From: Microbacterium testaceum
Lineage (GTDB): Bacteria; Actinomycetota; Actinomycetes; Actinomycetales; Microbacteriaceae
DNA length: 64,000 nt
Assembly (NCBI RefSeq): GCF_029761935.1
Contig: NZ_CP121699.1
Span: forward strand, 2,170,001 to 2,234,000
Reading direction: 5' to 3'
The position numbers were made by a program, and so were the translations under genes. Positions 17,454 through 52,709 of the stretch are shown piece by piece; position 1 is the stretch's first letter, and the number at the start of each line of letters is the position of its first letter. Below the pieces are notes generated by a model. The model saw nothing but the letters and a program-made list of their open reading frames with translations, ran no database searches and had not been told where the DNA came from.

Positions 17454-18536
17454 ATGTCGGATGCCACGACCCCCGCCCTCTCCGACGACAGCGTGACGGT
17501 GCGCAAGGTGCCGCTTCGCGACCGCCTGCCGGTGATCTCGCACCTGCGCCGCAGCGTCGGCCTGCAGCGCACCATGCTGGTGCTCGGCCTCGTGATCACC
17601 ACGGTGTTCCTGCTGACGGCTCTGTTCGCCCCTCTTCTCGCGCCCTACGGGTTCGCGCAGCAAGAGGCCGACGGTGTGAAGTTCGGCACCCAGCAGGCGC
17701 CCAGCGCGATGAACCTGCTCGGCACGACCGTCGGCGGGTACGACGTCCTCTCGCGCGTGATCTGGGGAGCGCAGACCGCGCTGCTCGTGATCCTCTGCGC
17801 GATCGCGTTCTCGATCTTCCTCGGCATCTTCCTGGGTCTCGTCGGCGGCTACTTCGGCGGCTGGCTCGACCGGATCCTCGTGGTGCTGTGCGACGCGATC
17901 TACGCGTTCCCCTCGCTGCTGCTCGCCATCGTCATGTCGATCGCGATCACGAAGGGACAGTCGACCCTGTGGGGTGGCATCCTGGCCACCGCCATCTCGA
18001 TCACCGTGGTGTTCGTGCCGCAGTACTTCCGCGTGATCCGCGCCGAGGTGGTGCGCGTGAAGGCCGAGCCCTTCGTCGAGTCGGCGCGCGTGATCGGGGT
18101 GCCCACGGCGCGCATCCTGCTGCGTCACGTGCTGCGCAACTCGACGCGCTCGCTGCCGGTCGTGGTCACGCTGAACGCCTCCGAGGCGCTGCTCACCCTG
18201 GCGGGCCTCGGCTTCCTCGGCTTCGGCATCGAGGCCACCGCCGCCGCCGAGTGGGGCTACGACCTCAACCGCTCGGTGAGCGACGTGACGAGCGGCATCT
18301 GGTGGACGGCGATCCCGCCCGGGGTCGCGATCGTGCTCGCCGTGCTCGGCATCACCCTCGTCGGCGAGAGCCTCAACGACCTGAGCGACCCGCGTCTGCG
18401 CACGCGCCGCCGCGCGGGTCGCGCTCCCGCTCCCGTCACCGCGGTCGATCCGTCGACGTCTCCCGCCGAGGCCTCGGCGACCGCGTCCCCCGCCGGGTCC
18501 CCGGCATCCGCCCCCTCCGATGGGAGCCCCTCATGA
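17454..18536 (+). CDS. ABC importer permease, DppC type
   Basis: Second membrane subunit of the importer, 360 residues. An N-terminal cytosolic tail of 45 residues is followed by a helix (LVLGLVITTVFLLTALFAPLL), the OppC_N signature, and five more helices with the EAA-type segment ARVIGVPTARILLRHVLRN. The C-terminus is an Ala/Pro/Ser-rich tail of about 45 residues, probably disordered. Its stop codon overlaps the start of the ATPase gene (ATGA). Confidence 0.9.
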   Translation: MSDATTPALSDDSVTVRKVPLRDRLPVISHLRRSVGLQRTMLVLGLVITTVFLLTALFAPLLAPYGFAQQEADGVKFGTQQAPSAMNLLGTTVGGYDVLSRVIWGAQTALLVILCAIAFSIFLGIFLGLVGGYFGGWLDRILVVLCDAIYAFPSLLLAIVMSIAITKGQSTLWGGILATAISITVVFVPQYFRVIRAEVVRVKAEPFVESARVIGVPTARILLRHVLRNSTRSLPVVVTLNASEALLTLAGLGFLGFGIEATAAAEWGYDLNRSVSDVTSGIWWTAIPPGVAIVLAVLGITLVGESLNDLSDPRLRTRRRAGRAPAPVTAVDPSTSPAEASATASPAGSPASAPSDGSPS

Positions 18537-20224
18537 CCGGCACCACCGCCCCCGTCGCCCGGATCGACGACCTGCGCGTCGCCTTCGCCACCGATGGCGC
18601 GCCGGTCGCCGCGATCAACGGGATCTCGCTCGAGGCCCACGCCGGAGAGGTGCTCGCGATCGTCGGCGAGTCGGGCTCGGGCAAGACCGTCACCGCCAAC
18701 ACCCTGTTGGGGCTGCTGCCCGAGACGGCGACGCTGTCGGGTGCGGTCATCGTGCGCGGTCGCGACGGCGACCAGACCGACATCGTGCACGCCACCCGCG
18801 CGCAGTTGCGCGAGATGCGCGGGCGCGATGCGGCGATGGTGTTCCAGGAGCCGTCGACCGCCCTCAACCCCGTCTACACGGTCGGGTGGCAGATCGCCGA
18901 GGGCCTGCGCGCGCACGAGAAGCTGTCGAAGTCCGAGGCGAAGACCAAGGCGGTCGACATCCTGCGCCGGGTCGGCATCCCCGATCCCGAGAAGCGCGTC
19001 GACGACTACCCGCACCAGTTCTCGGGCGGGCAGAAGCAGCGCGTGGTCATCGCGATGGCCCTCGTGCTGAACGCCGGCCTGATCATCGCCGACGAGCCGA
19101 CCACGGCGCTGGATGTGACGGTGCAGGCCGAGATCCTCGACCTGCTGCGCACGTGCCGCGACGAGTTCGGCGCGACGATCGTGCTCATCACGCACAACAT
19201 GGGCGTCGTCGCCGACCTCGCCGACCGCGTGATCGTGATGTACCGCGGTGACATCGTCGAGCAGGCGCCCGTGCGCGAGCTGTTCGCCGCCCCGCGCGAG
19301 GAGTACACGCGCGAACTGCTCGCGGCCGTGCCGCACGTGGGTCGCGGCAAGAGCTCGCGGCAGTCGCTCGCCGATGCGGCACCGACCTCGCCGCCGGCGG
19401 GAAGCCTCGTCGTGGCCGACAAGGTCGAGATCGGGTACCCCGGTCGCTTCGGGTCGCCGGGGGTCGTCGCCGTGAAGGGCGTGGACTTCTGGATCGGTCC
19501 CGGCGAAGTGCTGGGGCTCGTGGGAGAGTCCGGGTCGGGCAAGACCACGATCGGTCGCGCGATGGTCGGTCTTACGTCGGTCGTGGGCGGATCGCTCACG
19601 GTCCTCGGCACCGAGATGAACGGCGCGAAGCCCCGCACCCTCGCCAAGACGCGCCCCGACATCGGGTTCGTCTTCCAGGACCCGGCGACGAGCTTCAACC
19701 CGCTGCTCACGATCGCGGAGTGCATCGCCGAGCCGCTCGTGGTGCACCGTCGCGTCTCGGGAGCCCGCGCCGCCCGCCAGCGCGTGAACGAGCTGCTGGA
19801 TGCCGTGCAGCTGCCGACCGCGTTCGGCGATCGCTACCCGCACGAGCTGTCGGGTGGTCAGCGTCAGCGCGCTTCGCTCGCTCGAGCCCTCGCCCTGGAC
19901 CCGAAGCTCCTCATCGCCGATGAGCCGACCTCGGCGCTGGACGTGTCGGTGCAGGCGCGCGTGCTGCAGCTGTTCGCGCAGCTGCAGGCGGAGTTCGGGT
20001 TTGCGTGCCTGTTCATCAGCCACGACCTCGCCGTCGTCGACGAGGTGGCCGACCGCGTGGTCGTGCTGCAGCGGGGCGTGATCCGCGAGCAGGGCACGAC
20101 CGTGCAGGTGCTCACCGAGCCGCGCGACGACTACACAAAGCGCCTGCTCGTGTCGCTACCGGTGCCCGACCCGGTCGAGCAAGAGAACCGCCGCGAGCTG
20201 TGGCGGTCGACCCGCGGGGTCTGA
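18533..20224 (+). CDS. Fused double ATPase of family-5 ABC importer (DppD-DppF fusion)
   Basis: A 563-residue protein joining the two ATPase subunits. Domain 1: Walker [10 protein letters not shown], signature FSGGQKQR, Walker [13 protein letters not shown]. Domain 2: [17 protein letters not shown] and [13 protein letters not shown] linker of about 40 residues including a proline-rich stretch joins them near residue 290. Both domains look competent for ATP hydrolysis, so transport needs one gene product instead of a DppD/DppF pair. Fusions of this kind are common in actinobacteria. Translationally coupled to the DppC-type permease. Confidence 0.92.
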
Positions 20225-20236
20225 CGAGAACGGAGA

Positions 20237-20267
20237 TCGGGCCCTCACGCGCGGCGTGGGGGCCCGA
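20237..20267 (+). terminator. Terminator after ABC importer operon
   Basis: A 14-bp stem (tcgggccctcacgc against gcgtgggggcccga, one G-U pair) with a 3-base loop starts 13 bases after the ATPase stop codon. The rest of the 208-base gap to the convergent membrane-protein gene contains no other feature I can identify. Confidence 0.65.
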
Positions 20268-20432
20268 CTCTCGCGTCCGGCGCGCTGCGCCGAGCTTGTG
20301 CGCCGCGGCATCCGTTCGTCGCCCGCGCATCGTCAGCGATCTGCACAACCTCAGCGGAGTGAGCCGGATGCCGGCTGAGCTTGTACGGATCGCCGAGCTT
20401 GTGCGGCGACGGCACCCGCCCTCGACCCCGCG

Positions 20433-37928: not shown

Positions 37929-38276
37929 TTATCGTCGGTCTGGCCGGCGCGATGATGAAGCGGTGTTGCTGCGAGTCGCGGTTCACCGACAGGTCGTCAG
38001 GGACGTGTCTCGGGGTCTCACGGCTTCCCGAGCCCCAGCGTGCACAGCAGCACGGTCTCGTCGTCGGCACCCGCCGGCAATTCGATAGCCGGCGGGAACA
38101 CCCCAAACTGACGCCACTCGTCAGCGTGCGGGGTGACGTGCTCTGTCATCCCGGCGATGAGCGCGGGGGAGAGGTGGAACGGGATGCCGAACTCCTTCGC
38201 GATCAACCACGCTTGGAATGTGCGATACGTCGCGAGGTGCGCGAAGCCTTCGTCGGCGGGGTAGTCGCCGTAGGTG
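37794..38276. repeat. Direct repeat copy A (483 bp)
   Basis: Matches 39270-39752 base for base in register (constant offset of 1,476) with roughly nine in ten positions identical by eye and no net insertion or deletion. It contains the 3' end of the Imm70-like gene and, on the minus strand, the 3' end of a DinB-like gene. Confidence 0.92.
38018..38276 (-). pseudogene. Truncated DinB/maleylpyruvate-isomerase-like gene
   Basis: Encodes about the last 86 residues of the protein made by the intact gene at 39494-40072: TYGDYPADEGFAHLATYRTF, FGIPFHLSPALIAGM, HADEWRQFGVFPPAI, ETVLLCTLG. The upstream two-thirds is missing and is replaced by unrelated sequence, so no functional product is expected. 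The homology stops exactly where direct repeat A ends. Confidence 0.85.
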
Positions 38277-38594
38277 GGCGCGCAGTGCACGGGAGCGGCG
38301 GACACGCTTGGCGCGGGGTAAATCCCGAAAGCGGTACGTGGCGCCCGGGTGGGGGTGCTGGCCGCGACGGGCGCGGACCATCCGGAGTTCATCGGTTCCT
38401 GATTGAGCCCTTCGGCGGGTGCGGGAACGTGTCCCCCGAATGGTGGGTGCCGGAGCGCCGTCAGAATCGGTAGCCTCCGAATGAACTCGAGCGGGGGCCT
38501 TGAGTCAAGCGGGGCCTCCGACGAGATCCATAAGAGACGGCGAAGGATGACGTCACGAGTTGTCTTATGCCTATGGGGGGCGAGGGAGGAAACG

Positions 38595-38888
38595 ATGCAA
38601 GAAGAGCTTGTGCACCCAGTGGCGATACAAGAGGGAGCCATCTTTCGCGTGCGCCTCTGGGTCCCTCCGTCCGCAGACGGCTTCGCGTGGCAAGTGGACG
38701 ACTGGGAACTGACCAACGGTGATCTTGACCAAGCCCTGAGGTGGGCTGATGAGCATGCCCAGGGAAACCCGTACGAACTGTTCGTACGGGCAGGATCACC
38801 CGACTACTACCGCCTCCAAGGCTCGCCGGCTGACGGTGGCGGCACTGAAGAAACCATCATCCTTCGCACCGACTCGACCCGTGAATGA
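38595..38888 (+). CDS. Small acidic protein, unknown (immunity-like)
   Basis: A 97-residue cytosolic protein: MQEELVHPVAIQEGAIF, VRLWVPPSADGFAWQVDDWEL, NGDLDQALRWADEHAQGNPYELFV. It is acidic and Trp-rich, features common in immunity proteins, but I do not recognise a family. The ATG follows gagggaggaaacg, a strong ribosome-binding site. Its stop overlaps the next small gene. Confidence 0.68.
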   Translation: MQEELVHPVAIQEGAIFRVRLWVPPSADGFAWQVDDWELTNGDLDQALRWADEHAQGNPYELFVRAGSPDYYRLQGSPADGGGTEETIILRTDSTRE

Positions 38889-39404: not shown

Positions 39405-39752
39405 TCATCGTCGGTCTGGCCGGCACGATGATGAAGGGGTGTTGCTGCAAGTCGCGGTTCATCGACATGTCGTCGGGGACATGGTCAGGGTGCTCACGGC
39501 TTCCAGAACCCCAGCGTGCACAGCAGCACGGTCTCGTCGTCGGCGCCCACCGGCGGGTCGATGGCCGGCGGGAAGACGCCCCACTGACGCCACTCGTCGG
39601 CGTGCGGGGTGACGTGCTGGTTCATGCCCGCGATGAGCTCGGGGGAGAGGTGGAACGGGATGCCGGACTCCTTCGCGATCGACCACGCTTGGAATGCGCG
39701 GTACGTCGCGAGGTGCGCGAAGCCCTCGTCGGCCGGGTAGTCGCCGTAGGTG
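39270..39752. repeat. Direct repeat copy B (483 bp)
   Basis: Second copy of the segment at 37794-38276. In this copy the DinB-like gene continues intact on the minus strand, whereas the Imm70-like part is cut off. The two copies are therefore chimeras left by duplication and deletion or by recombination between related loci. The preceding 39086-39269 holds nothing else recognisable. Confidence 0.92.
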
Positions 39753-40072
39753 AAGTGGAAGGTGTCCGCGAACTCACCCGCGCGAACCGCCGCCGTGGCC
39801 TTGTCGTTGAGGGCGTCGTACGAGGCGATCGGGTCGTCGCCTAGCAGGTCGACATCGGCGAACGGATTGCTGTCTGCGGCCGACCGCCCGGCGATCACGT
39901 CGGGAACCCAGGCTTCGTCGTATGCATGGCGACCCAGGATGCCGAGCAACGTGGGCGACTCAAGCTGACTCCACTTCTTTGGCACGGATGCCGAGAAGTC
40001 AGCCGGATCGAGCTGATCGACGACCTCGCGTAGCGCGGCGTCGGCGCGAAGGAAGAGAGTGGCGGGGCTCAT
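39494..40072 (-). CDS. DinB/maleylpyruvate isomerase-fold protein (TIGR03086-like)
   Basis: A 192-residue helical-bundle protein of the DinB/MDMPI superfamily. N-terminal ATLFLRADAALREVVDQLDPADF and KKWSQLESPTLLGILGRHAYDEAWVPDVIAG match the bundle start with a metal-type His; the C-terminal third has FHLSPELIAGMNQHVTPHADEWR. Members bind a metal and may use mycothiol as a cofactor in actinobacteria. Intact parent of the fragment at 38018-38276. The function here is unknown. Confidence 0.78.
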   Translation of the reverse strand: MSPATLFLRADAALREVVDQLDPADFSASVPKKWSQLESPTLLGILGRHAYDEAWVPDVIAGRSAADSNPFADVDLLGDDPIASYDALNDKATAAVRAGEFADTFHFTYGDYPADEGFAHLATYRAFQAWSIAKESGIPFHLSPELIAGMNQHVTPHADEWRQWGVFPPAIDPPVGADDETVLLCTLGFWKP

Positions 40073-40345
40073 GAATGGGGAGGGTACTCCGGGGTGGGGG
40101 TGGGGGCCAGAGGCGTTCTGGCCCCTGATGTGCGGTACTCCCAGCACCTACGTCCCCAATCATTTCTCGGCGGGCATGTCGGCGGTCGAGCGTGTTGCCT
40201 GATCGTTTATACGCACCGACTCAGGGGTGTTCGAGCATCGATTAGCCCCCTCATCCCTCTGCGTGTTTCGGATCCTGACGCCCCGTCGTGTAGCTTGCCG
40301 ATGAACGCGTGACGCGTGTATCGACATAGATGCAGTGAGGCAAAA

Positions 40346-41779
40346 ATGACCGTGAGTAATCCCAAGCAAGTCAAGTCCGGTGCGGAGAAGAGATTCTTCA
40401 TCGATATGCTCACCAAGGACATCGAGTTGCTGCCCGCGATCGCCGATCTCGTGGATAACAGTGTCGACGGGGTTCGTCATCTCGCAAGCGACTCCGACTT
40501 GGAGGGGTATTGGGTGGCGATAGATGTCGATGGCGCGGGCTTCGAAATTAGGGATAACGCGGGCGGGATCTCGACCGATATCGCGCGAAACTACGCCTTC
40601 CACTTCGGTCGCCCCGCCGAGTTTCAAGGTGTGCCCGGGTCGGTCGGTCAATTCGGAATCGGGATGAAGAGGGCAATCTTCAAGCTCGGGACGGCCTTCG
40701 AGGTCGAGAGCAATTGGGCCTCTCAAGGTGGAGAAACTCAAACGCATTTCTTAGTCAAAGAGAGCGTCTCGAAGTGGGCGGCTCGAGGCGATGACTGGTC
40801 ATTCTCATTCGCCGAACTAGACGAGAACATTAAACAGCAAAATGCCGATCCGACCGGCACAAGGATCAAGGTCTCCCCGCTGCACCGAAGCGTCGCCGAG
40901 GATTTAGCGGACGATTCGGTGGTTCAGCAGCTCAAGAACGAACTCGCCATCCGTCACCAGCAATCCATTCTCAATGGACTCAAAGTGACCGTTAATGGCG
41001 GACGACTGAAGGCGCATCGGCCCATTTTGCAGTCGTCTGATGAGTTTGCGCCCATCAATTACAGTTTCGTGGTCGACGCCGAGGTGGAGGGGTATTCGGG
41101 GAAAGTGCACGTTAAGCTCACAGCGGGTACCGTCGCGCCCCCGAGTGCCCAGAAAGATCTCGACGATGGTCAGGCATCGAACTTCACGAACACGGGCGAG
41201 GCGGGATGGTACGTATTCTGTAATGACCGCCTTTTGCTCGCGGCGGACCGCAGTAGTTTTACGGGTTGGGGATCAACCGCAGCTGCTTATCACCCACAGT
41301 ACAGAAACTTCCGAGGCTATGTTTACATGGAATCGGAGGATGCTCGCTTCCTCCCGTGGAACACGACGAAAACAGCAGTAGATCGCGACTCCGCGGTATT
41401 TCGCGAAGTCGCGACTAAGATGAAGGTTGCGCTCGTCGACGTCCAAGCTCTCATTAATAGAGCGAAAATCGAGCGAGAGCGTGTGAAATCTCTGGACGAG
41501 GCCGGGATCGAGGATTACACTTCTCCAAAACTCTCCTCTGCGATGGACGTAACTCGCAACCTTCCGCTCGAGTCCATCCCCACTTCGAGAGTGCTAGTCG
41601 CGCCTGAACCCGCGGCATTGCCACCAATTCCGCGTCCAGGTCCCACTACGCAGCGTATTCAATACCAGGTCGAGATTGATAGGTATCAGAAGTTGTCCAC
41701 GCTTTTCGGGACCAACAACGGATCGGCGCTCGGTCGGGCAACGTTCGACTACGTGTGGAAAGCCGAGGTGTCGGAGTGA
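40346..41779 (+). CDS. GHKL (MORC/MutL/Hsp90-like) ATPase of a defence-type island
   Basis: A 477-residue protein with a GHKL ATP-binding domain in the N-terminal 200 residues: the Asn box is AIADLVDNSVDG, the Asp/Gly box is FEIRDNAGGIS, and the lid has GSVGQFGIGMKRAIFKLG. The region after about residue 230 (VKLTAGTVAPPSAQ, FLPWNTTKTAVDRDSAVF) fits an S5/middle domain as in MORC and MutL relatives. Composition is less GC-rich than the chromosome and contains TTA Leu codons. It overlaps the next gene by 4 bases (GTGA). MutL/MORC-like ATPases are known in restriction-modification neighbourhoods with Dcm and Vsr, as here, so a role in DNA surveillance or anti-phage defence is likely (inference). 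Confidence 0.85.
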   Translation: MTVSNPKQVKSGAEKRFFIDMLTKDIELLPAIADLVDNSVDGVRHLASDSDLEGYWVAIDVDGAGFEIRDNAGGISTDIARNYAFHFGRPAEFQGVPGSVGQFGIGMKRAIFKLGTAFEVESNWASQGGETQTHFLVKESVSKWAARGDDWSFSFAELDENIKQQNADPTGTRIKVSPLHRSVAEDLADDSVVQQLKNELAIRHQQSILNGLKVTVNGGRLKAHRPILQSSDEFAPINYSFVVDAEVEGYSGKVHVKLTAGTVAPPSAQKDLDDGQASNFTNTGEAGWYVFCNDRLLLAADRSSFTGWGSTAAAYHPQYRNFRGYVYMESEDARFLPWNTTKTAVDRDSAVFREVATKMKVALVDVQALINRAKIERERVKSLDEAGIEDYTSPKLSSAMDVTRNLPLESIPTSRVLVAPEPAALPPIPRPGPTTQRIQYQVEIDRYQKLSTLFGTNNGSALGRATFDYVWKAEVSE

Positions 41780-42666
41780 ATGTCGTCGCTCTGACGGATC
41801 ATCCGGCGAGATCGGCGCAAGCCAGGATGGTGGTAGATGCCTGTCGAAGACTGACAGCGATTGCGCCGCTTACCAGCTACCAATTCGTGGGCTCGGGAGG
41901 GCTGGCCTTCCAAGATTTTCGTGACGTCCACTCGTCTCTCGGAATCACCGCAATGACGTCCATATCTGTGGACGAGCACGCGGCGGAGAGGCTCGAGTTC
42001 AATAAACCTTTCGAGGGCATGAAGATACTAACCGGTGCAGTAAGAGATCAACTTCCACTCATCGACTGGAAGATGCCGGTCATTGTCTGGCTCGAGTATG
42101 CACACCCCTTGACCCGCGACGTTCTTCGCGATTTCGAGTACATCATCAGCAATGCACAAGTGGGAAGCTTCGTTGCCATAGGGGTAGAGGCGGAGGTCGA
42201 CGGCTCATTCGAAGATCGCATCAGACTCGTAAGGGAGAATTTAGGCGATCTTGCGCCCAGCGGCCTAGATGTTAGTGCAGTAACCGGTTCCGGTGTTGCG
42301 CGGATCCAGCAAAAGGTCCTCGCCGATCAGGGAAGCACGCACGGCCGCGCCGCTCATGGGGATGCCCTCCGTCAGATACTGGACATCGAGTACCAGACAG
42401 CGAAGAAGCGCACTACGTGGGGAGGCGTTGTATCCTCGGTGAACTTCGCAAGGATGATTGAGTTATGCCGCTTTGACGATCTCACCTTCTCGCGTCAACG
42501 CGGTGAGAGACCGCTGAAGCTTAGAGTTCCCAAACTTACCGCGCGAGAGTGGGACCATCTGGAAAGAACGCATGGAGAGGAAATTGCCGAGCGTCCGCGC
42601 CCTGGTGGCATCGGCTTAGACGATCTAAGAGCATTTCGGGAAGTTTATCGCTATCTGTCCCGTTGA
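41776..42666 (+). CDS. Unrecognised partner of GHKL ATPase, Rossmann/methyltransferase-like
   Basis: A 296-residue protein coupled to the GHKL gene by GTGA overlap. N-terminal half: ARMVVDACRRLTAIAPLTSY, QFVGSGGLAFQDFRDVHSSLG, MTSISVDEHAAERLEFNKPF, LPLIDWKMPVIVWLEYAHPL and GSFVAIGVEAE. The order of a FVGSG turn, an acidic strand end, a DW/IVWLEY motif and later strands looks like a degenerate class I methyltransferase fold. The C-terminal half (RTTWGGVVSSVNFARMIE, LTAREWDHLERTHGEE) is not recognised. It could bind SAM or a nucleotide, or have lost catalysis. A longer GTG start at 41755 is possible. Confidence 0.65.
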   Translation: MNVVALTDHPARSAQARMVVDACRRLTAIAPLTSYQFVGSGGLAFQDFRDVHSSLGITAMTSISVDEHAAERLEFNKPFEGMKILTGAVRDQLPLIDWKMPVIVWLEYAHPLTRDVLRDFEYIISNAQVGSFVAIGVEAEVDGSFEDRIRLVRENLGDLAPSGLDVSAVTGSGVARIQQKVLADQGSTHGRAAHGDALRQILDIEYQTAKKRTTWGGVVSSVNFARMIELCRFDDLTFSRQRGERPLKLRVPKLTAREWDHLERTHGEEIAERPRPGGIGLDDLRAFREVYRYLSR

Positions 42667-42721
42667 TCGGTGGTTGCCGCGCCTAAGTCGACCGACATCC
42701 GGTGGTCGGTAATCGCTAATT

Positions 42722-42762
42722 ATTACTCAGTTTGAACGGCTGATCATTCCTCAGTGTGAACG
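42722..42762. repeat. Tandem 17-mer pair
   Basis: attactcagtttgaacg (42722-42738) and attcctcagtgtgaacg (42746-42762) agree at 15 of 17 positions with a 24-base period, in the gap between two convergent island genes. They could be protein-binding sites or the relic of an insertion-sequence end. No inverted partner is visible. Confidence 0.5.
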
Positions 42763-42763
42763 C

Positions 42764-43612
42764 CTAGCTTTCGTCTACAATTTCGGCGTCGACCACGGAC
42801 GCGCCGGGGGCCTCGGTGATCGTCTCCAGTACACGGACAACTTGACCGAAATCGCGTATTCCATCGTAAATCGCAACGGGCGCGTTGATAATAGTCGTGA
42901 TCGCCGTCACGGCCGTGGCAAGAGCGACCACTCGTTTTAGAAGAGGGTTCCCCAGTTTGGAGCTCAGTCGTGTGCTGTTGCGGACCATGGCCCCCGTTAG
43001 GCCGTCCATCTCGTCCACAATCCCGCTCGCGCCGCGAACTTTGTACGAGTTGACCGCTGAGATCAGACGGTTTGCGTGGGTAAGGAGCGTCTCCCGCAGA
43101 TCCATGGGCAGAGACGTGTCCCTCAGGCTGTCGATTACCTTCATAGCGAGGCGCCGAATCTCGTCCAGGGACCCTGCATCAACGGCCTTACTGTACGAGT
43201 GGCGAAAGAGAACCGCGCTTGTGACTGTCATGCCCGCGTGTACACCCGCATCGAGCATCTGGTTGAAGACGTCCACCGTTGATCGACTGGTGGCGATTAG
43301 AGGGAGAGCGCCTTCCACCGCATGGATGGGTTTCAGCAACGTGCCCTTTGGAACAGCGGGGTCCCGCAGGGACTGAACCCTGTCCCGTGCATCACCGGGA
43401 AGCTGCATTATGGCGGCGATCGCGGCAAAGTAGGCCGACTGGTCGTCGGGGTCGATGCCCAAATACTCAGCGACACCTTGCTTCGTGAGAAGCGGCCCGT
43501 CGCTCCGTGGTTGCATGCCCGCCGATCGAAGGTGCTCTAACAGTAGTAGCAGGCGCCCGGCAGGATTCGTCAGGTGCTGCTGAGGGGTGAGTTCGTTATC
43601 ATCTTCTGGCAC
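42764..43612 (-). CDS. Island protein with C-terminal hydrophobic segment, unknown
   Basis: A 282-residue protein I do not recognise. The N-terminus is soluble (LTNPAGRLLLLLEHLRSAG, LLTKQGVAEYLGIDPDDQSAYFAAIAAIM), with helices containing many Leu, Asp and Arg. A single hydrophobic segment at about residues 225-248 (VVALATAVTAITTIINAPVA) lies near the C-terminus, followed by IYDGIRDFGQVVRVLE. It is divergent from the methyltransferase gene. Its place among defence genes suggests a membrane effector or regulator (inference). Confidence 0.62.
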   Translation of the reverse strand: MPEDDNELTPQQHLTNPAGRLLLLLEHLRSAGMQPRSDGPLLTKQGVAEYLGIDPDDQSAYFAAIAAIMQLPGDARDRVQSLRDPAVPKGTLLKPIHAVEGALPLIATSRSTVDVFNQMLDAGVHAGMTVTSAVLFRHSYSKAVDAGSLDEIRRLAMKVIDSLRDTSLPMDLRETLLTHANRLISAVNSYKVRGASGIVDEMDGLTGAMVRNSTRLSSKLGNPLLKRVVALATAVTAITTIINAPVAIYDGIRDFGQVVRVLETITEAPGASVVDAEIVDES

Positions 43613-43796
43613 AGCAAAATCCTAGGGGCCGCGGGACGAGCGCGGGCGGGCAATGCCGGGTCTTCTGGAACTGAACTCATGGTTTCGCGTTGTTCGACGC
43701 GCGCCTCCGGACGAGCGCGCTCTCTTCCGATGCGGCCGCCGTAGTTCAGTGCGTGTCGATTGGGGCGGCACGCTGCCCGATCGTAGGATCGTACAT

Positions 43797-45089
43797 ATGA
43801 GTTCTGGAGACCGTCCGATTGCGGTCGATCTTTTCTGTGGGGCGGGAGGCCTCTCCCTAGGGCTTGAGCAAGCTGGGTTTGACGTAGTCGCCGCGGTCGA
43901 GTACGACCCCATTCACGCGGCAGTTCACGAGTTCAACTTCCCAGACGGAAAGACTTTCTGCGCGGACGTACGCAATGTCTCGGGCGAGGACATACGCCGG
44001 GGTTCGACAATCGGAACGCGGGAAGTTCACCTCGTCGCTGGGGGGCCGCCCTGTCAGGGTTTTTCCATGATGGGACGCAGGGCGATTGACGACCCTCGCA
44101 ATGCACTTCTGAAAGAGTTTGTTCGCATCGTCCTGGAGTTGCGGCCTCGCTACTTTCTCATGGAGAACGTCGCGGGTCTGATGGCGGGAGCCCACCGCCA
44201 ATTGCTCGACGAGGTAATTGAAATATTTGAGCAGAGTGGCTCATACAGAGTCCTGACGCCAGTCAGGGTTCTTCAGGCAGCTGAATACGGGTCCCCGCAG
44301 TCGCGGCGTCGAACTATTCTGCTGGGCGCGCGCAAGGACGTCGCAATGCCGAGCTACCCCGACGCCATCAATACGCCGCGGACGATCAAGGGATCCATAC
44401 CAGCGATACAGAGCGCGTCCCCACCGCTAGGACCGAGCGTTCGCGAGGCGCTGGCCGGTCTACCCAACGCTGACGATTTCGACGAACTGATACGCGCTGA
44501 GAGCATATCAGGGGTCGTCTTCGGTGCTGGGAGTGTCTACTCTGCAAAACTGCGCGGGGAGGTTCTGGACGAGGCTGATTATTCGCGTCCCCGACCTAGC
44601 ACAGGTGATGTTCTCACTGCTTCCCGGAGAACGGTGCATGGTCCAAGTTCGCGCGCTCAATTTCAGCGAACTCTGCAAGGTCAGACGGAGCCAATCTCGC
44701 GATTCTTACGCTTGCACTCAGACGGTCTTAGCAATACTCTTCGGGCGGGTACGGGGTCGGATCGTGGCGCATACACAGCGCCACGGCCAATTCACCCCGA
44801 TTACCCTCGAGTGATTACGGTGCGTGAAGCCGCGCGACTTCATGGCTTTCCTGACTGGTTTCGATTTCATACGACAAAATGGAATGGCTTTCGGGAGATA
44901 GGCAACTCGGTGCCGCCTCATTTAGGACGAGCGGTGGGTGCCGCAATTCTTGAGGCGGACCGTGTAGCTCCGCGTCGTATGGAGGAGATCCTCCCCCTCG
45001 GCCGCGAGGAACTCCTTCTGATGGGTCCAATGGAGGCGCACCGTCATTTCGGTCTGACTGAGAGAGTCATCCCGGCGCGCGGGCGGTGA
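43797..45089 (+). CDS. dcm: C5-cytosine DNA methyltransferase
   Basis: A 430-residue C5 methylase. Motif I is AVDLFCGAGGLSLGLEQAGF, motif IV is GGPPCQGFS with the catalytic Cys, motif VI MENVAGL, motif VIII QSRRRTILLG, and motifs IX/X SNTLRAG and GNSVPPHLGRA near the end. The target-recognition region between VIII and IX determines a site I cannot predict. ATG 43797 is preferred over an in-frame upstream GTG-rich extension because motif I follows immediately. It is paired with a Vsr endonuclease gene. It protects self DNA or marks it for the island's other proteins. Confidence 0.93.
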   Translation: MSSGDRPIAVDLFCGAGGLSLGLEQAGFDVVAAVEYDPIHAAVHEFNFPDGKTFCADVRNVSGEDIRRGSTIGTREVHLVAGGPPCQGFSMMGRRAIDDPRNALLKEFVRIVLELRPRYFLMENVAGLMAGAHRQLLDEVIEIFEQSGSYRVLTPVRVLQAAEYGSPQSRRRTILLGARKDVAMPSYPDAINTPRTIKGSIPAIQSASPPLGPSVREALAGLPNADDFDELIRAESISGVVFGAGSVYSAKLRGEVLDEADYSRPRPSTGDVLTASRRTVHGPSSRAQFQRTLQGQTEPISRFLRLHSDGLSNTLRAGTGSDRGAYTAPRPIHPDYPRVITVREAARLHGFPDWFRFHTTKWNGFREIGNSVPPHLGRAVGAAILEADRVAPRRMEEILPLGREELLLMGPMEAHRHFGLTERVIPARGR

Positions 45090-45138
45090 TATTCAAGTTT
45101 GTGGCCCTGCGTGAACGTCTTTGTCGTACCATCGCCCC

Positions 45139-45612
45139 ATGACTCGTCCTAGGCCGCAACCGTCGAGCGAGCTTGCATCCCGGAGGATGAAGAATACGGC
45201 CTCTAGGGACACGCCTCCGGAGTTGGCGCTGAGGCGTCGGCTTCACGCAATGGGCTTCCGCTATCGCGTCGACACGCGCCCGGTGGCCGCAATGCGTCGG
45301 ACGGCCGACATCGTCTTTCGGCCTTGCTCCGTTGCGGTTTTCGTGGACGGGTGCTTCTGGCACAGCTGTCCGGTGCATGGTTCTAAGCCAAAATCAAACG
45401 CCCAATGGTGGTCGGAAAAGTTGGCCGCCAATGTCCAACGGGACCGTGATACGGACAAAAGGTTGGCCGAGGCGGGTTGGGAGGTTGTCCGCGTGTGGGA
45501 GCACGAGGATCCCGCCGAGGCGGCGTCCCACATCGCCGAAGTGGTTCTTGCAGCGCGCGGCAGAACAGTCGATAGGATCACGTCTCGCGATCCAAGTTTC
45601 CCGGGGCCCTGA
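45139..45612 (+). CDS. vsr: Very short patch repair endonuclease Vsr
   Basis: A 157-residue Vsr-type nuclease: MKNTASRDTPPELALRRRLHAMGF, the catalytic DIVF strand, VFVDGCFWHSCPVHG with zinc-type Cys/His, WWSEKL, and GWEVVRVWEHED with the active-site residues. It nicks T:G mismatches produced by deamination of methylated cytosine. The ATG at 45139 is 49 bases after the methylase, so the two are probably cotranscribed. In islands with MutL/MORC-like ATPases a Vsr-like nuclease may also act as the effector (inference). Confidence 0.9.
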   Translation: MTRPRPQPSSELASRRMKNTASRDTPPELALRRRLHAMGFRYRVDTRPVAAMRRTADIVFRPCSVAVFVDGCFWHSCPVHGSKPKSNAQWWSEKLAANVQRDRDTDKRLAEAGWEVVRVWEHEDPAEAASHIAEVVLAARGRTVDRITSRDPSFPGP

Positions 45613-46214: not shown

Positions 46215-47145
46215 TTAGCTCCTCCCTGGCAGTGGGTGGCCGCCATGGCGCTGCGCAGTGTGGGAGCCCGGTATCACCGACTTCACGTAGCGACGTAAGG
46301 CGCGGTCGGCGACGTATATGTACGTGCCCAATGCGCCGCGACTAAGCAACACCCCGTAGATGTTCTGGACCAGGCGCAGGAGATCGTCATCGGTCGTCTT
46401 CTGCTGAAGCTTCGAAAGGTTCTCTTTGCCCTTTCGATCCCGGTAGGACGCGCGGTTCACGACCATTTGCTGGGTAGCCTCATCGAATCGCAAGTCCTCG
46501 CCGACGATGACTCCTGCGTAGTTCAGGTCGTACCCCTGCACGGTGTGGATGGAGCCGACTTCGTCAATCGATGTCGGCGCGTTGATCCAATCCTTGTCGG
46601 TGCGGTTCCACGTGAACTGTGTGCCCTCGATCTCAAAATCAAAGCCGGGCTCGTTGCCGCGCGTCTTCCAGTCCCATGCGTAACCAGCAACGAGACGGGC
46701 GAGGCCCACCTCCCGCTCGCGCGCAAGAATTGCTCCGCGCATCTCGTTGACGCTGTCGAACAATCGCAGGTCATATTCTCCGAAATCGGCCGTCTCCCCA
46801 GGGGGGAGCACGCCGCGCAGCAGACTTCTAACGAACCCCACGTAGTCGGCGTCGGCGCGGACCCGCATTTGCCTAGCGAGGGGGAACCACCGGTTGTCGC
46901 TCCTGGCGCTCGCGATCGTTGGAGTCAGAGTTTCACCGGACAAGTCTGCTGGCCGAACCCAGGTGCTGCCGTATCCGCGAAGCCGCGCTGACCGTCTCGC
47001 CGACATACACGGAGGCCGCCGCCTCCAACTTCGCCCCGCCGAGTACGTAGACGACCGGCCAATTCGTCCGGCGCTCGTCTTCTTCGGCCCAGGTGCTGAC
47101 CGCGGTTGTCGTGAAGTCGAACCGCTCGATTTCAAAAGGCGTCAT
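46215..47145 (-). pseudogene. Decayed GIY-YIG / DUF2075 helicase gene
   Basis: The 5' part (47145 to about 46940) encodes about 65 residues of a GIY-YIG nuclease domain: WPVVYVLGGAKLEAAASVYVGETVSAASRIRQHLG in outline (VYV and YVGET motifs). The reading frame then changes, and from about residue 60 of the other frame the sequence is the C-terminal half of a DUF2075 helicase: MRVRADADYVGFVRSLL, SIHTVQGYDLNYAGVIVGED, NIYGVLLSRGALGTYIYVAD. The Walker A/B core that should lie between, several hundred residues, is absent. So an internal deletion with frame shift inactivated a GIY-YIG-DUF2075 fusion. Confidence 0.72.
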
Positions 47146-47204: not shown

Positions 47205-47726
47205 TTCTGGACCGACGAGCTGCGCCGCTCCGACACCCTCCTCTACGGCCGCGTCACCTACGAGCTGATGGAGGGCGCGTAGCGCCGGCCGGAATCGGGG
47301 GAGTGGCCGGACTGGATGGATGCCAGTGAGGCGGCGTTCTCGGAAGTGATGGATCCGATGCGGAAGGTCGTGGCATCCGGGACTCTCGACGCCGTCGACT
47401 GGAACGCCGAACTCATCCGAGGCGACGTCGTCGATGCCGTCCGACGGCTCAAGGAGCAACCGGGCCGAGGCATCGCGCTCGGAGGAGCGAAGCTCCCCGC
47501 TACGCTCGCAGCGCACGGGCTCATCGACGATTTCACGTTCCTTGTGCATCCGGTCATCGCGGGGTGCGGACCACGGCTGCTCGATGGTTTGCGGGATCAG
47601 ATCCACCTCGAGCTCGTCGAGCGACGTGCGTTCCGCTCGGGCGCGATTGTGCCGCGCTACCGGCCCGTCGCACAGGAAAGGGCCTCGCGCGAACTGGTCG
47701 CGCGAGGCCTCGCATCCGGAACTTAG
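47205..47726 (+). pseudogene. Truncated dihydrofolate reductase-like gene with in-frame stop
   Basis: Paralogue of the intact gene at 51019-51579. Homology starts at 47205 (FWTDELRRSDTLLYGRVTYE, lacking the first 31 codons) and a TAG at 47280-47282 replaces a Trp codon of the intact copy. The downstream frame from about 47316 remains open to 47726 but without a normal start. The missing 5' end coincides with the end of the defence island, which suggests that the island's arrival or a deletion cut this gene. Confidence 0.85.
47681..47709. terminator. Relic terminator hairpin
   Basis: ggcctcgcgcga-5-tcgcgcgaggcc, a perfect 12-bp stem, is the counterpart of the hairpin that follows the intact paralogue at 51585-51619. 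Here it lies inside the run-on frame of the pseudogene. Confidence 0.55.
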
Positions 47727-47880
47727 TCCTGGAGGAACGGGTAGTCGGTGTATCCGGTTTCGCCGCCGCCGTAGACGGAGACCTGGTCGCCCTGGTTCTC
47801 GTCGGCGCCCGTCTGCCAGCGGGTGACGAGGTCGGGGTTTCGCGATCGCGGGGCGACCAAGGGTGGAGTTGACGATGAAG
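47727..47880 (-). pseudogene. Relic of old yellow enzyme gene 3' end
   Basis: Minus-strand sequence matches about the last 45 codons of the intact alkene reductase at 51633-52709 (the GYTDYPFLQ-like end and the LVTRW segment), then breaks down with an internal deletion near 47850. It shows that a DHFR-plus-OYE block was duplicated as a unit. Confidence 0.75.
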
Positions 47881-51022: not shown

Positions 51023-51579
51023 CCCAGTCCCTCCGCTACGCCATCAACGTCACCCTCGACGGCTGCGTCCATCACGAGGCGGGCCTGCCGCCGGATGCCG
51101 AGTCCATGGCGTTCTGGACCGACGAGCTCCGCCGCTCCGACACCCTCCTCTACGGCCGCGTCACCTACGAGCTGATGGAGGGTGCGTGGCGCAGACCGGG
51201 ATCGGGGGAGTGGCCGGACTGGATGGATGCCAGTGAGGTCTCGTTTTCGGAAGTGATGGATCCGATGCGGAAGGTCGTGGCATCCGGGACTCTCGACGCC
51301 GTCGACTGGAACGCCGAGCTTGTCCGGGGGGATGCGGTCGAGGCTGTTCGGCGGCTCAAGGAGGAAGCGGGGCGAGGTATCGCGCTCGGTGGGGTGAAGC
51401 TGCCTGCTGCGCTCGCGGCGAAGGGACTCATCGACGAGTTCACGTTCGTCGTGCATCCGGTGATTGCGGGGCGTGGGCCGCGGTTGCTCGAGGGCGTGCG
51501 GGATCAGATGAAGCTCGAGCTCGTGGAGCGATGGGAGTTCCGATCGGGCGCCAGCGTGCAGCGCTACCGACCGGTGTAG
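51019..51579 (+). CDS. Dihydrofolate reductase family (RibD C-terminal) protein
   Basis: A 186-residue NADPH-type reductase fold protein: LRYAINVTLDGCVHHEAG, DTLLYGRVTYELMEG, KVVASGTLDAVDWNAEL, GIALGGVKLPAALAAKGLIDEF and VHPVIAGRGPRLLEGV. This DUF1062-/YwjB-like group in actinobacteria is seldom a true folate enzyme; its substrate is unknown. Intact parent of the truncated copy at 47205-47726. The ATG overlaps the upstream unknown gene's stop by 4 bases. Confidence 0.88.
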   Translation: MTQSLRYAINVTLDGCVHHEAGLPPDAESMAFWTDELRRSDTLLYGRVTYELMEGAWRRPGSGEWPDWMDASEVSFSEVMDPMRKVVASGTLDAVDWNAELVRGDAVEAVRRLKEEAGRGIALGGVKLPAALAAKGLIDEFTFVVHPVIAGRGPRLLEGVRDQMKLELVERWEFRSGASVQRYRPV

Positions 51580-51584
51580 AGCGA

Positions 51585-51619
51585 AAGGGCCCCGCGCGAA
51601 CGAGTCGCGCGGGGCCCTT
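51585..51619. terminator. Bidirectional terminator between DHFR-like and OYE genes
   Basis: aagggccccgcgcg-7-cgcgcggggccctt, a perfect 14-bp stem between convergent genes, starting 5 bases after the DHFR-like stop. Confidence 0.8.
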
Positions 51620-51632
51620 GAAGCGGGACTGA

Positions 51633-52709
51633 TCAGGCCTGCAGGAACGGGTAGTCCGTGTAGCCGCGCTCGTCGCCGCCGTAAACGGAGGCCTGGTCGA
51701 CCTCGTTCTCGTCGGCGCCCTGCTCCCAGCGGGTGACGAGGTCGGGGTTGGCGATGGCGGGGCGACCGACGGCGACCAGGTCGGCGAGGTCCTTCTCGAC
51801 CACCGAGACGGCCTCGTCGCGCGTGGTGACGCTCGAGAAGCCCGAGTTGATGATGAAGGTGCCGCCGAAGGTGCGGCGGAGGTCCTGGATCAGGTCACCG
51901 GCGGGGTCGGCGTGCAGCACGCTCAGGTACGCGAGGCCCAGGGGGGCGAGGCCCGACACGAGCGCCTCGTAGGTGGCGCGGGTCTCGGCGTCGTCGGTCT
52001 CCCAGACGTCCTGGATGTTGTGCGCGGGCGAGATGCGGATGCCGACGCGCGTCGCGCCGACCTCGGCCACGACGGCCTGCGCGACCTCGATGACGAAGCG
52101 GGCGCGGGCGGCGGGGGATCCGCCGTACTCGTCGGTGCGCTGGTTCGACGCGGGCGAGAGGAACTCGTGCAGCAGGTAGCCGTTGGCGCTGTGCAGCTCG
52201 ACGCCGTCGAAGCCGGCATCCACGGCCTTGCGGGCAGCGGCGACGAACTCGTCGCGAACCGTGGCGAGCTCAGCGGTGTCGAGGGCGTGCGGGGTAGCGT
52301 AGGCGACCTTCGTGCCGTCGGCGAGGCGCGTGTCACCCTCGATCGCGATCGCCGAGGGGGCGACGATACGGTCGGTGCCCGTGATCTCGGGGTGCGTGAC
52401 GCGTCCGCCGTTCATGAGCTGCATGAAGACGGTGCCGCCCTCGGCGTGCACGGCGTCGGCGACCTTGGCCCAGCCCGCGGCCTGAGCGTCGGTCACGATG
52501 CCCGGCTGACCCGGGTACGCGCGCGACTCGTCGCTCGGGAAGACACCCTCGGTGACCAGCAGGCCGATACCGGCGCGCTGCGCGTAGTACTTCGCGACGA
52601 TCGGTCCGGGGACTCCGTCAGCGCCGGCGCGCAGGCGGGTCATCGGGGCGAGCGAGACGCGGTTGCGGACGCCGATCTCTCCGACGGTGGTGGGGCTGAA
52701 CAGGCTCAT
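51633..52709 (-). CDS. Old yellow enzyme family alkene reductase
   Basis: FMN-dependent ene-reductase of 358 residues. NADPH-driven reduction of activated C=C bonds or nitro compounds. The barrel shows VSLAPMTRLRAGADGVPGP, YYAQRAGIGLLVTEGV, MQLMNGGRVTHP, VELHSANGYLLHEFLSPASN with the His/Asn substrate pair, and RTDEYGGS. ATG 52709 has gaaaggacacc upstream. Probably a NemA/OPR-type stress or xenobiotic reductase. Partial copy at 47727-47880. Confidence 0.92.
   Translation of the reverse strand: MSLFSPTTVGEIGVRNRVSLAPMTRLRAGADGVPGPIVAKYYAQRAGIGLLVTEGVFPSDESRAYPGQPGIVTDAQAAGWAKVADAVHAEGGTVFMQLMNGGRVTHPEITGTDRIVAPSAIAIEGDTRLADGTKVAYATPHALDTAELATVRDEFVAAARKAVDAGFDGVELHSANGYLLHEFLSPASNQRTDEYGGSPAARARFVIEVAQAVVAEVGATRVGIRISPAHNIQDVWETDDAETRATYEALVSGLAPLGLAYLSVLHADPAGDLIQDLRRTFGGTFIINSGFSSVTTRDEAVSVVEKDLADLVAVGRPAIANPDLVTRWEQGADENEVDQASVYGGDERGYTDYPFLQA

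Follow-up and report, generated by a model that had tools for sequence, protein, structure and literature searches.

Where a MORC-type GHKL ATPase, a C5 cytosine DNA methyltransferase (Dcm) and a Vsr endonuclease are encoded side by side, which genes belong to one another, and what could they do together? The question is raised by positions 40346 to 45612 of a 64,000-nucleotide stretch of Microbacterium testaceum (contig NZ_CP121699.1; the whole stretch is called the window), part of a 3.38 Mb genome in a single contig. A sequence-only reading had proposed a compact five-gene defence island here, with a partner protein that could not be assigned, and had considered it a minimal variant akin to Mza systems. 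All five genes are present and open, and the assignment of a MORC/MutL/Hsp90-like ATPase to a DNA-modification island holds, whereas the proposed gene unit and the Mza comparison do not: the conserved unit consists of MORC and the gene behind it, which encodes a Methyltransf_35 protein, while Dcm-Vsr can be exchanged for Dnd, N6/N4 methylase or DISARM genes and the fifth gene is an orphan. It is an even bet (probability about 0.5) that this obligate two-gene module is a non-modifying arm, for restriction or silencing, that can be plugged onto different DNA-marking systems.

The ATPase displays the GHKL motifs DLVDNSVDG, DNAGG and GQFGIGMK followed by an S5 signature, GWYVFCNDRLL, in agreement with the GhXhhpXXRhl pattern by which MORC proteins are recognized (Iyer et al., 2008). 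This signature is present in 41 of 45 aligned rows, each of the other four deviating at one position. The predicted structure of the window ATPase has its closest match in MORC3, so that its closest fold among GHKL proteins, a criterion of our own, is that of MORC; on signature and model together, the protein is classed as a prokaryotic MORC. Its nearest rows on the MORC tree come from Actinomycetota. The partner left unassigned by the sequence-only reading matches PF20553 (Methyltransf_35) with 192.5 bits against a cut-off of 27 (E 1.5e-56, profile 12-301 of 309), and its probable GTG start overlaps the MORC stop codon in GTGA (41776-41779).

The pairing is constant. When named genomes were scanned with an alignment of the ATPase, 33 loci were obtained, ranging from Actinomycetota to an archaeon of the Woesearchaeota; with the window (L001), two viral contigs, a genus relative, phage and plasmid records and surveys seeded with the partner, 52 distinct loci were assembled. 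L038/L076 and L002/L077, each pair representing the same place, were counted once, and L050, L055, L058 and L062, found in the survey centres' own genomes, were not recounted. In every one of the 52 loci, which span several phyla, MORC is immediately followed by a Methyltransf_35 gene of the same strand. The gap is at most 30 nucleotides in 47 loci and zero or negative in 37, as calculated from longest-open-reading-frame starts, by which overlaps may be overstated. Circularity was avoided by using the partner as seed: in this reverse search, MORC was found directly upstream of Methyltransf_35 in 16 of 16 cases (13 from genome surveys and three from phage or plasmid records, with the partner gene of L040 being interrupted). 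The PF20553 surveys covered 98, 396, 398, 348, 345 and 201 genomes, some genomes being included in two of them. The pair is rare: among 98 relatives from the genus and order it occurs in two, and among 396 genomes of the phylum likewise in two, the window's genome being one of them each time.

The two genes are also tightly co-inherited. Over 34 matched loci, from which the broken loci L014, L016, L035 and L040 (kept among the 52) were excluded, the tree distances of MORC and Methyltransf_35 correlate with r 0.88, compared with 0.40 for MORC and Dcm and 0.21 for Methyltransf_35 and Dcm; the difference between 0.88 and 0.40 ranged from 0.20 to 0.79 across 1000 resamplings. Dcm and Vsr distances correlate at 0.63 in the 24 loci also having Vsr. 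Since MORC follows Methyltransf_35 closely and Dcm more weakly, there seem to be two inherited blocks, MORC-Methyltransf_35 and Dcm-Vsr, which meet in differing combinations. On Sinorhizobium meliloti psymA (L040, 5056-8816), about 2.8 kb of unrelated sequence interrupts the Methyltransf_35 gene, and Dcm and Vsr are found further on.

Exchange of the DNA-modification neighbour is visible across the loci. Neighbours were labelled with profiles built in this analysis, library scans being applied to example genes only, and modification, Dcm and Vsr genes were counted up to 8 kb from the pair, where short contigs can hide neighbours. Far from lying mostly outside defence neighbourhoods, the pair has a DNA-modification gene within this limit in 48 of the 52 loci. 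Dcm is found in 37 loci (25 of these with Vsr as well), Dnd genes for phosphorothioation in six, an N6/N4 methylase without Dcm in three and DISARM in two, namely the Microvirga plasmid locus L041 and the genome locus L071. In L072 and L073, the N6/N4 methylase gene shares sequence with the end of the pair; in L068 it lies at a distance of about 4 kb. A modification gene is present in each of the 13 loci that came from genome surveys seeded with the partner (Dcm in nine, N6/N4 methylase in three, DISARM in one). Proximity to Dcm exceeds chance, since Dcm lies within 8 kb in 23 of the 33 named-genome loci found with the ATPase, against an expectation of about 0.01 Dcm per 17.4 kb (the 35 genomes searched contain no more than 96 Dcm pieces in their 154.8 Mb). 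On a MORC tree of 41 loci, which excludes L065-L077, linkage to Dnd takes three changes, at least two of them on well-supported branches; the Dnd loci L026 and L035 group with the Dcm loci L040 and L027 in a clade with support 100/99.

Further genes accompany some of these neighbourhoods. L018 and L023 (Paenibacillus) have, beside Dnd genes, a gene directly upstream of the pair that is a possible extra effector, a SIR2-like domain being shown for L018 and L023 having a relative of that gene. HNH_2-type genes occur near the pair in L029, L033, L066 and L067 (recognized by Pfam in L033 and L066 and by a profile match in L029 and L067), L029 and L033 also encoding a very long HerA-type protein. 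A DNA phosphorothioation-associated putative methyltransferase (TIGR04096) is encoded in L033 at 18237-20321. L012, L016 and L076 combine the pair, Dcm and Vsr with adjoining N6/N4 methylase and ResIII genes, a type III-like set.

The smallest sets are found on mobile elements. In the record of the filamentous phage PfAC20, one end is occupied by adjoining genes for MORC, Methyltransf_35 and Dcm and by a 105-amino-acid gene without Pfam match; in the viral contig L004, the pair and Dcm lie near a tape-measure-like gene. Such compact sets suggest that nothing more than MORC, Methyltransf_35 and a DNA methylase may be required. In the available text of PMC11878078, defence systems are reported in 10 of 12 Pf phages, the PfAC20 Dcm being listed alone, as an incomplete system, and the two genes beside it being given no named role. 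The pair could explain some Dcm or Dcm-Vsr genes that resemble incomplete restriction systems, such as the one in PfAC20.

Two observations favour reading the pair as a restriction or silencing arm: apart from a methylase, these smallest sets hold little else, and the marks with which the pair occurs differ in their chemistry. In such a scheme, Dcm would mark host DNA, and the MORC dimer, acting with Methyltransf_35, would close on DNA as an ATP-gated clamp. Marked DNA would hold off or release the clamp, which on unmarked incoming DNA would stay locked, so that use of that DNA would be blocked. Vsr, where present, may repair deaminated 5-methylcytosine or add nicks.

Several observations weigh against this proposal. 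Vsr is the only nuclease identified in the window's unit, so that DNA must be acted on either without a nuclease or by an enzyme as yet unseen. As the DISARM loci and several of the Dnd loci have helicases and nucleases of their own, the pair could be accessory in them. No modification gene lies within 8 kb in four of the 52 loci: in L017 an Mrr nuclease adjoins the pair, L037 has Uma2, L025 lies on a contig of 3.1 kb that also encodes part of a cysteine desulfurase, and L034 on one of 5.5 kb with a PAPS-reductase-like gene. Vsr is not within 8 kb in 12 of the 37 Dcm loci. Like modification labels cluster together on the tree, values as low being reached in 1 of 500 shuffles for Dnd and 4 of 500 for Dcm, so that swaps have been repeated but few. 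Finally, the window's own Methyltransf_35 lacks residues conserved elsewhere, two otherwise conserved acids being gone.

These positions (window numbering) are a feature of our own alignment, with duplicates removed, and lie outside Pfam's definition. Residue 64 is E or D in 51 of 52 loci and S in the window only; residue 107 is D in 51 loci and E in the window only; residue 208 is D in 49 loci and T in the window, one of three exceptions. By analogy with other S-adenosylmethionine methyltransferases, positions 64 and 107 would correspond to the acidic residues of motifs II and IV. The window protein is probably catalytically altered, as judged from these substitutions, and the locus is therefore perhaps only partly functional. 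It appears quite possible that the window copy is a decaying remnant of a pair that is real elsewhere and no longer works here. Besides these residues, a broken helicase gene next door would fit such decay, as would the end branch of Methyltransf_35, which measures 0.90 in the window against 0.23 and 0.37 in its nearest kin, compared with 0.35 against 0.30 and 0.34 for MORC (trees of the same 12 pairs). Within the window, fast evolution is confined to Methyltransf_35, and may reflect relaxed constraint or a pseudoenzyme. However, the Methyltransf_35 open reading frame is intact, coupling to MORC is retained, the MORC motifs and the PCQG and ENV motifs of Dcm are kept, rapid change in one subunit would equally fit a pseudoenzyme with a new role, and a more distant row (an 18870-base contig) has a longer end branch than the window in both trees.

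The pair might instead aid modification, with MORC holding or looping DNA for site choice by Dcm, Dnd or an amino-methylase and Methyltransf_35 acting as a structural or second writing subunit. While its position next to four kinds of modification module and the overlap of its end with the N6/N4 methylase gene in L072 and L073 would suit such a helper, C5 methylases are common without it (PF00145 in 10 of 14 control genomes, PF20553 in none of the 14) and the MORC-Dcm correlation of 0.40 is low, which makes this explanation unlikely. Still less probable is abortive infection, in which Methyltransf_35 would act, under control by MORC, as an RNA methyltransferase effector resembling Trm1 and would halt translation when DNA modification fails. 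E. coli MutL stimulates Vsr, and MORC could likewise activate the nick of a working Dcm-Vsr restriction or repair pair. Despite the Dcm-Vsr correlation of 0.63 and a Caulobacter damage response that is seen when the methylase is absent and, in the available text of PMC12907096, depends on VsrA, this is the least probable explanation, that response being headed MutL-independent in the same text and Vsr missing within 8 kb not only from the 12 Dcm loci above but also from all six Dnd, all three N6/N4 methylase and both DISARM loci (L071 has Vsr about 10 kb off, and L040 has one past the limit).

Eukaryotic MORCs are known for gene silencing through action on DNA. In its broadest form, the restriction-arm interpretation would make MORC and its partner of Trm1-like methyltransferase fold a mobile silencing module that works without a nuclease and senses when any of several unlike marks (5-methylcytosine, N6/N4-methyl, phosphorothioate, DISARM) is missing, a prokaryotic counterpart of eukaryotic MORC silencing; so extended, it is tentative and rather unlikely. 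The function of prokaryotic MORCs is described as poorly understood in the accessible part of PMC8011034, and one constant pair across several marks would make a clear test of it possible.

Parts of this arrangement are already known. As the sequence-only reading had indicated, the context resembles that described by Iyer, Abhiman and Aravind (2008; PMC2292703), where an S5-signature MORC lies beside a cytosine methylase and Vsr and a minority of neighbourhoods are without helicase genes. By contrast, the available text of that paper mentions neither a Methyltransf_35-type partner nor phosphorothioation, and a superfamily II helicase is present in about 70% of its neighbourhoods, with none found at 40.3-45.6 kb in the window. 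A related logic with a different partner is known from the HEF_HK / Response_reg_2 pairs, in which, according to the portion of PMC8011034 at hand, a GHKL (HATPase_c_3) protein is tightly linked to one partner, a C5 methylase and Vsr; there, however, the partner is response-regulator-like and the ATPase carries HEF_HK. Neither PF19191 in the window ATPase nor PF19192 in its partner was among the matches at E up to 0.1, the presence of both models in that Pfam copy being unconfirmed. Mza-like systems share a cytosine methylase, and MORC-family proteins are associated in type II (PMC9523054, as far as its text is available). In Dnd loci, the modification module takes varied restriction partners and a cytosine methylase may replace phosphorothioation, but GHKL, MORC and HATPase are absent from the main text available for that study (PMC10853773), and the moving part here is the MORC-Methyltransf_35 pair. 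In L041 and L071, the pair lies between an MmeI-like gene and drmA, within DISARM as annotated in NZ_CP102847 (drmD, MmeI-type enzyme, drmA, drmB, drmC); no PADLOC model matched the two pair proteins of L041. Among the window's island proteins, no drm gene was found except for methylase-type matches to Dcm. Neither a constant Methyltransf_35 partner nor a switching of the pair between Dcm, Dnd, N6/N4 methylase and DISARM was found in the literature covered, outside of which lie subscription papers, figures and supplements.

Features at the island and its right edge in the window.
Feature	Position	Strand	Assignment and remarks
MORC-family GHKL ATPase, 477 amino acids	40346..41779	+	PF13589 (HATPase_c_3), 33.1 bits (cut-off 25)
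Methyltransf_35 partner, 296 amino acids	41776..42666	+	PF20553; GTG start inferred
Orphan protein, 282 amino acids, between the pair and Dcm	42764..43612	-	No family match; outside the conserved unit
C5 cytosine DNA methyltransferase (Dcm type)	43797..45089	+	ATG 43797; PF00145, 210.7 bits
Vsr endonuclease	45139..45612	+	TIGR00632, 124.4 bits (cut-off 97.85)
Bystander protein, 127 amino acids	45684..46067	-	No family match
Schlafen-group-3 helicase, C-terminal part (bystander; gene apparently broken)	46215..47135	-	PF09848, 160.3 bits, profile 149-354 of 354

The methylase with Vsr recognized in the sequence-only reading is borne out by both family matches, and the two genes in a row, each above its cut-off, have the make-up of a Dcm-Vsr repair pair. 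Dcm is the sole PF00145 match found in the genome, and for Vsr the listed open reading frame begins at TTG 45121, upstream of the ATG at 45139. Apart from Vsr, no cognate restriction endonuclease was found above cut-off among the island proteins, so that the island does not qualify as type II restriction-modification. The 282-residue open reading frame, whose product was called membrane-type in the sequence-only reading, matched no family of Pfam, PADLOC or NCBIfam at E up to 0.1, a protein search returned only itself, and the other loci showed no counterpart of it; it is an orphan and is not judged part of the core.

Horizontal gain, which had been proposed from lower GC and TTA codons, is supported by the composition of the island. 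The five genes have a GC content at third codon positions of 0.59-0.70, compared with 0.86-0.92 for dnaB, a WYL regulator and an OYE gene, the contrast being smaller for another flank gene (449 amino acids) at 0.74. TTA codons number two in MORC, three in Methyltransf_35, two in Dcm, one in the 282-residue gene and none in Vsr, compared with none in the four flank genes. The dnaB-OYE interval ranges from about 7.5 to 45 kb among six close relatives, which fits a variable insertion region, to judge from these sequences. PF20553 had no match in nine relatives whose dnaB is 96-98% identical, 40.1-47.2 kb of the window had no DNA match of at least 80 bases in the dnaB-OYE intervals of four of the nine, and no clean empty insertion site was seen in the relatives compared.

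The Schlafen-group-3 helicase gene (46215-47145) is apparently in pieces, its C-terminal part alone matching; at its upstream end, a stretch in another frame, without Pfam match, is presumably GIY-YIG-like. A direct repeat (47205-47858 and 51112-51767, 85% over 659 bases) bounds a 3-kb segment adjoining the island, the first copy containing no more than the last part of the OYE gene. Two related genes, presumably DinB-like (38018-38716 and 39494-40147), of which the first is apparently degenerate, lie at the island's left edge.
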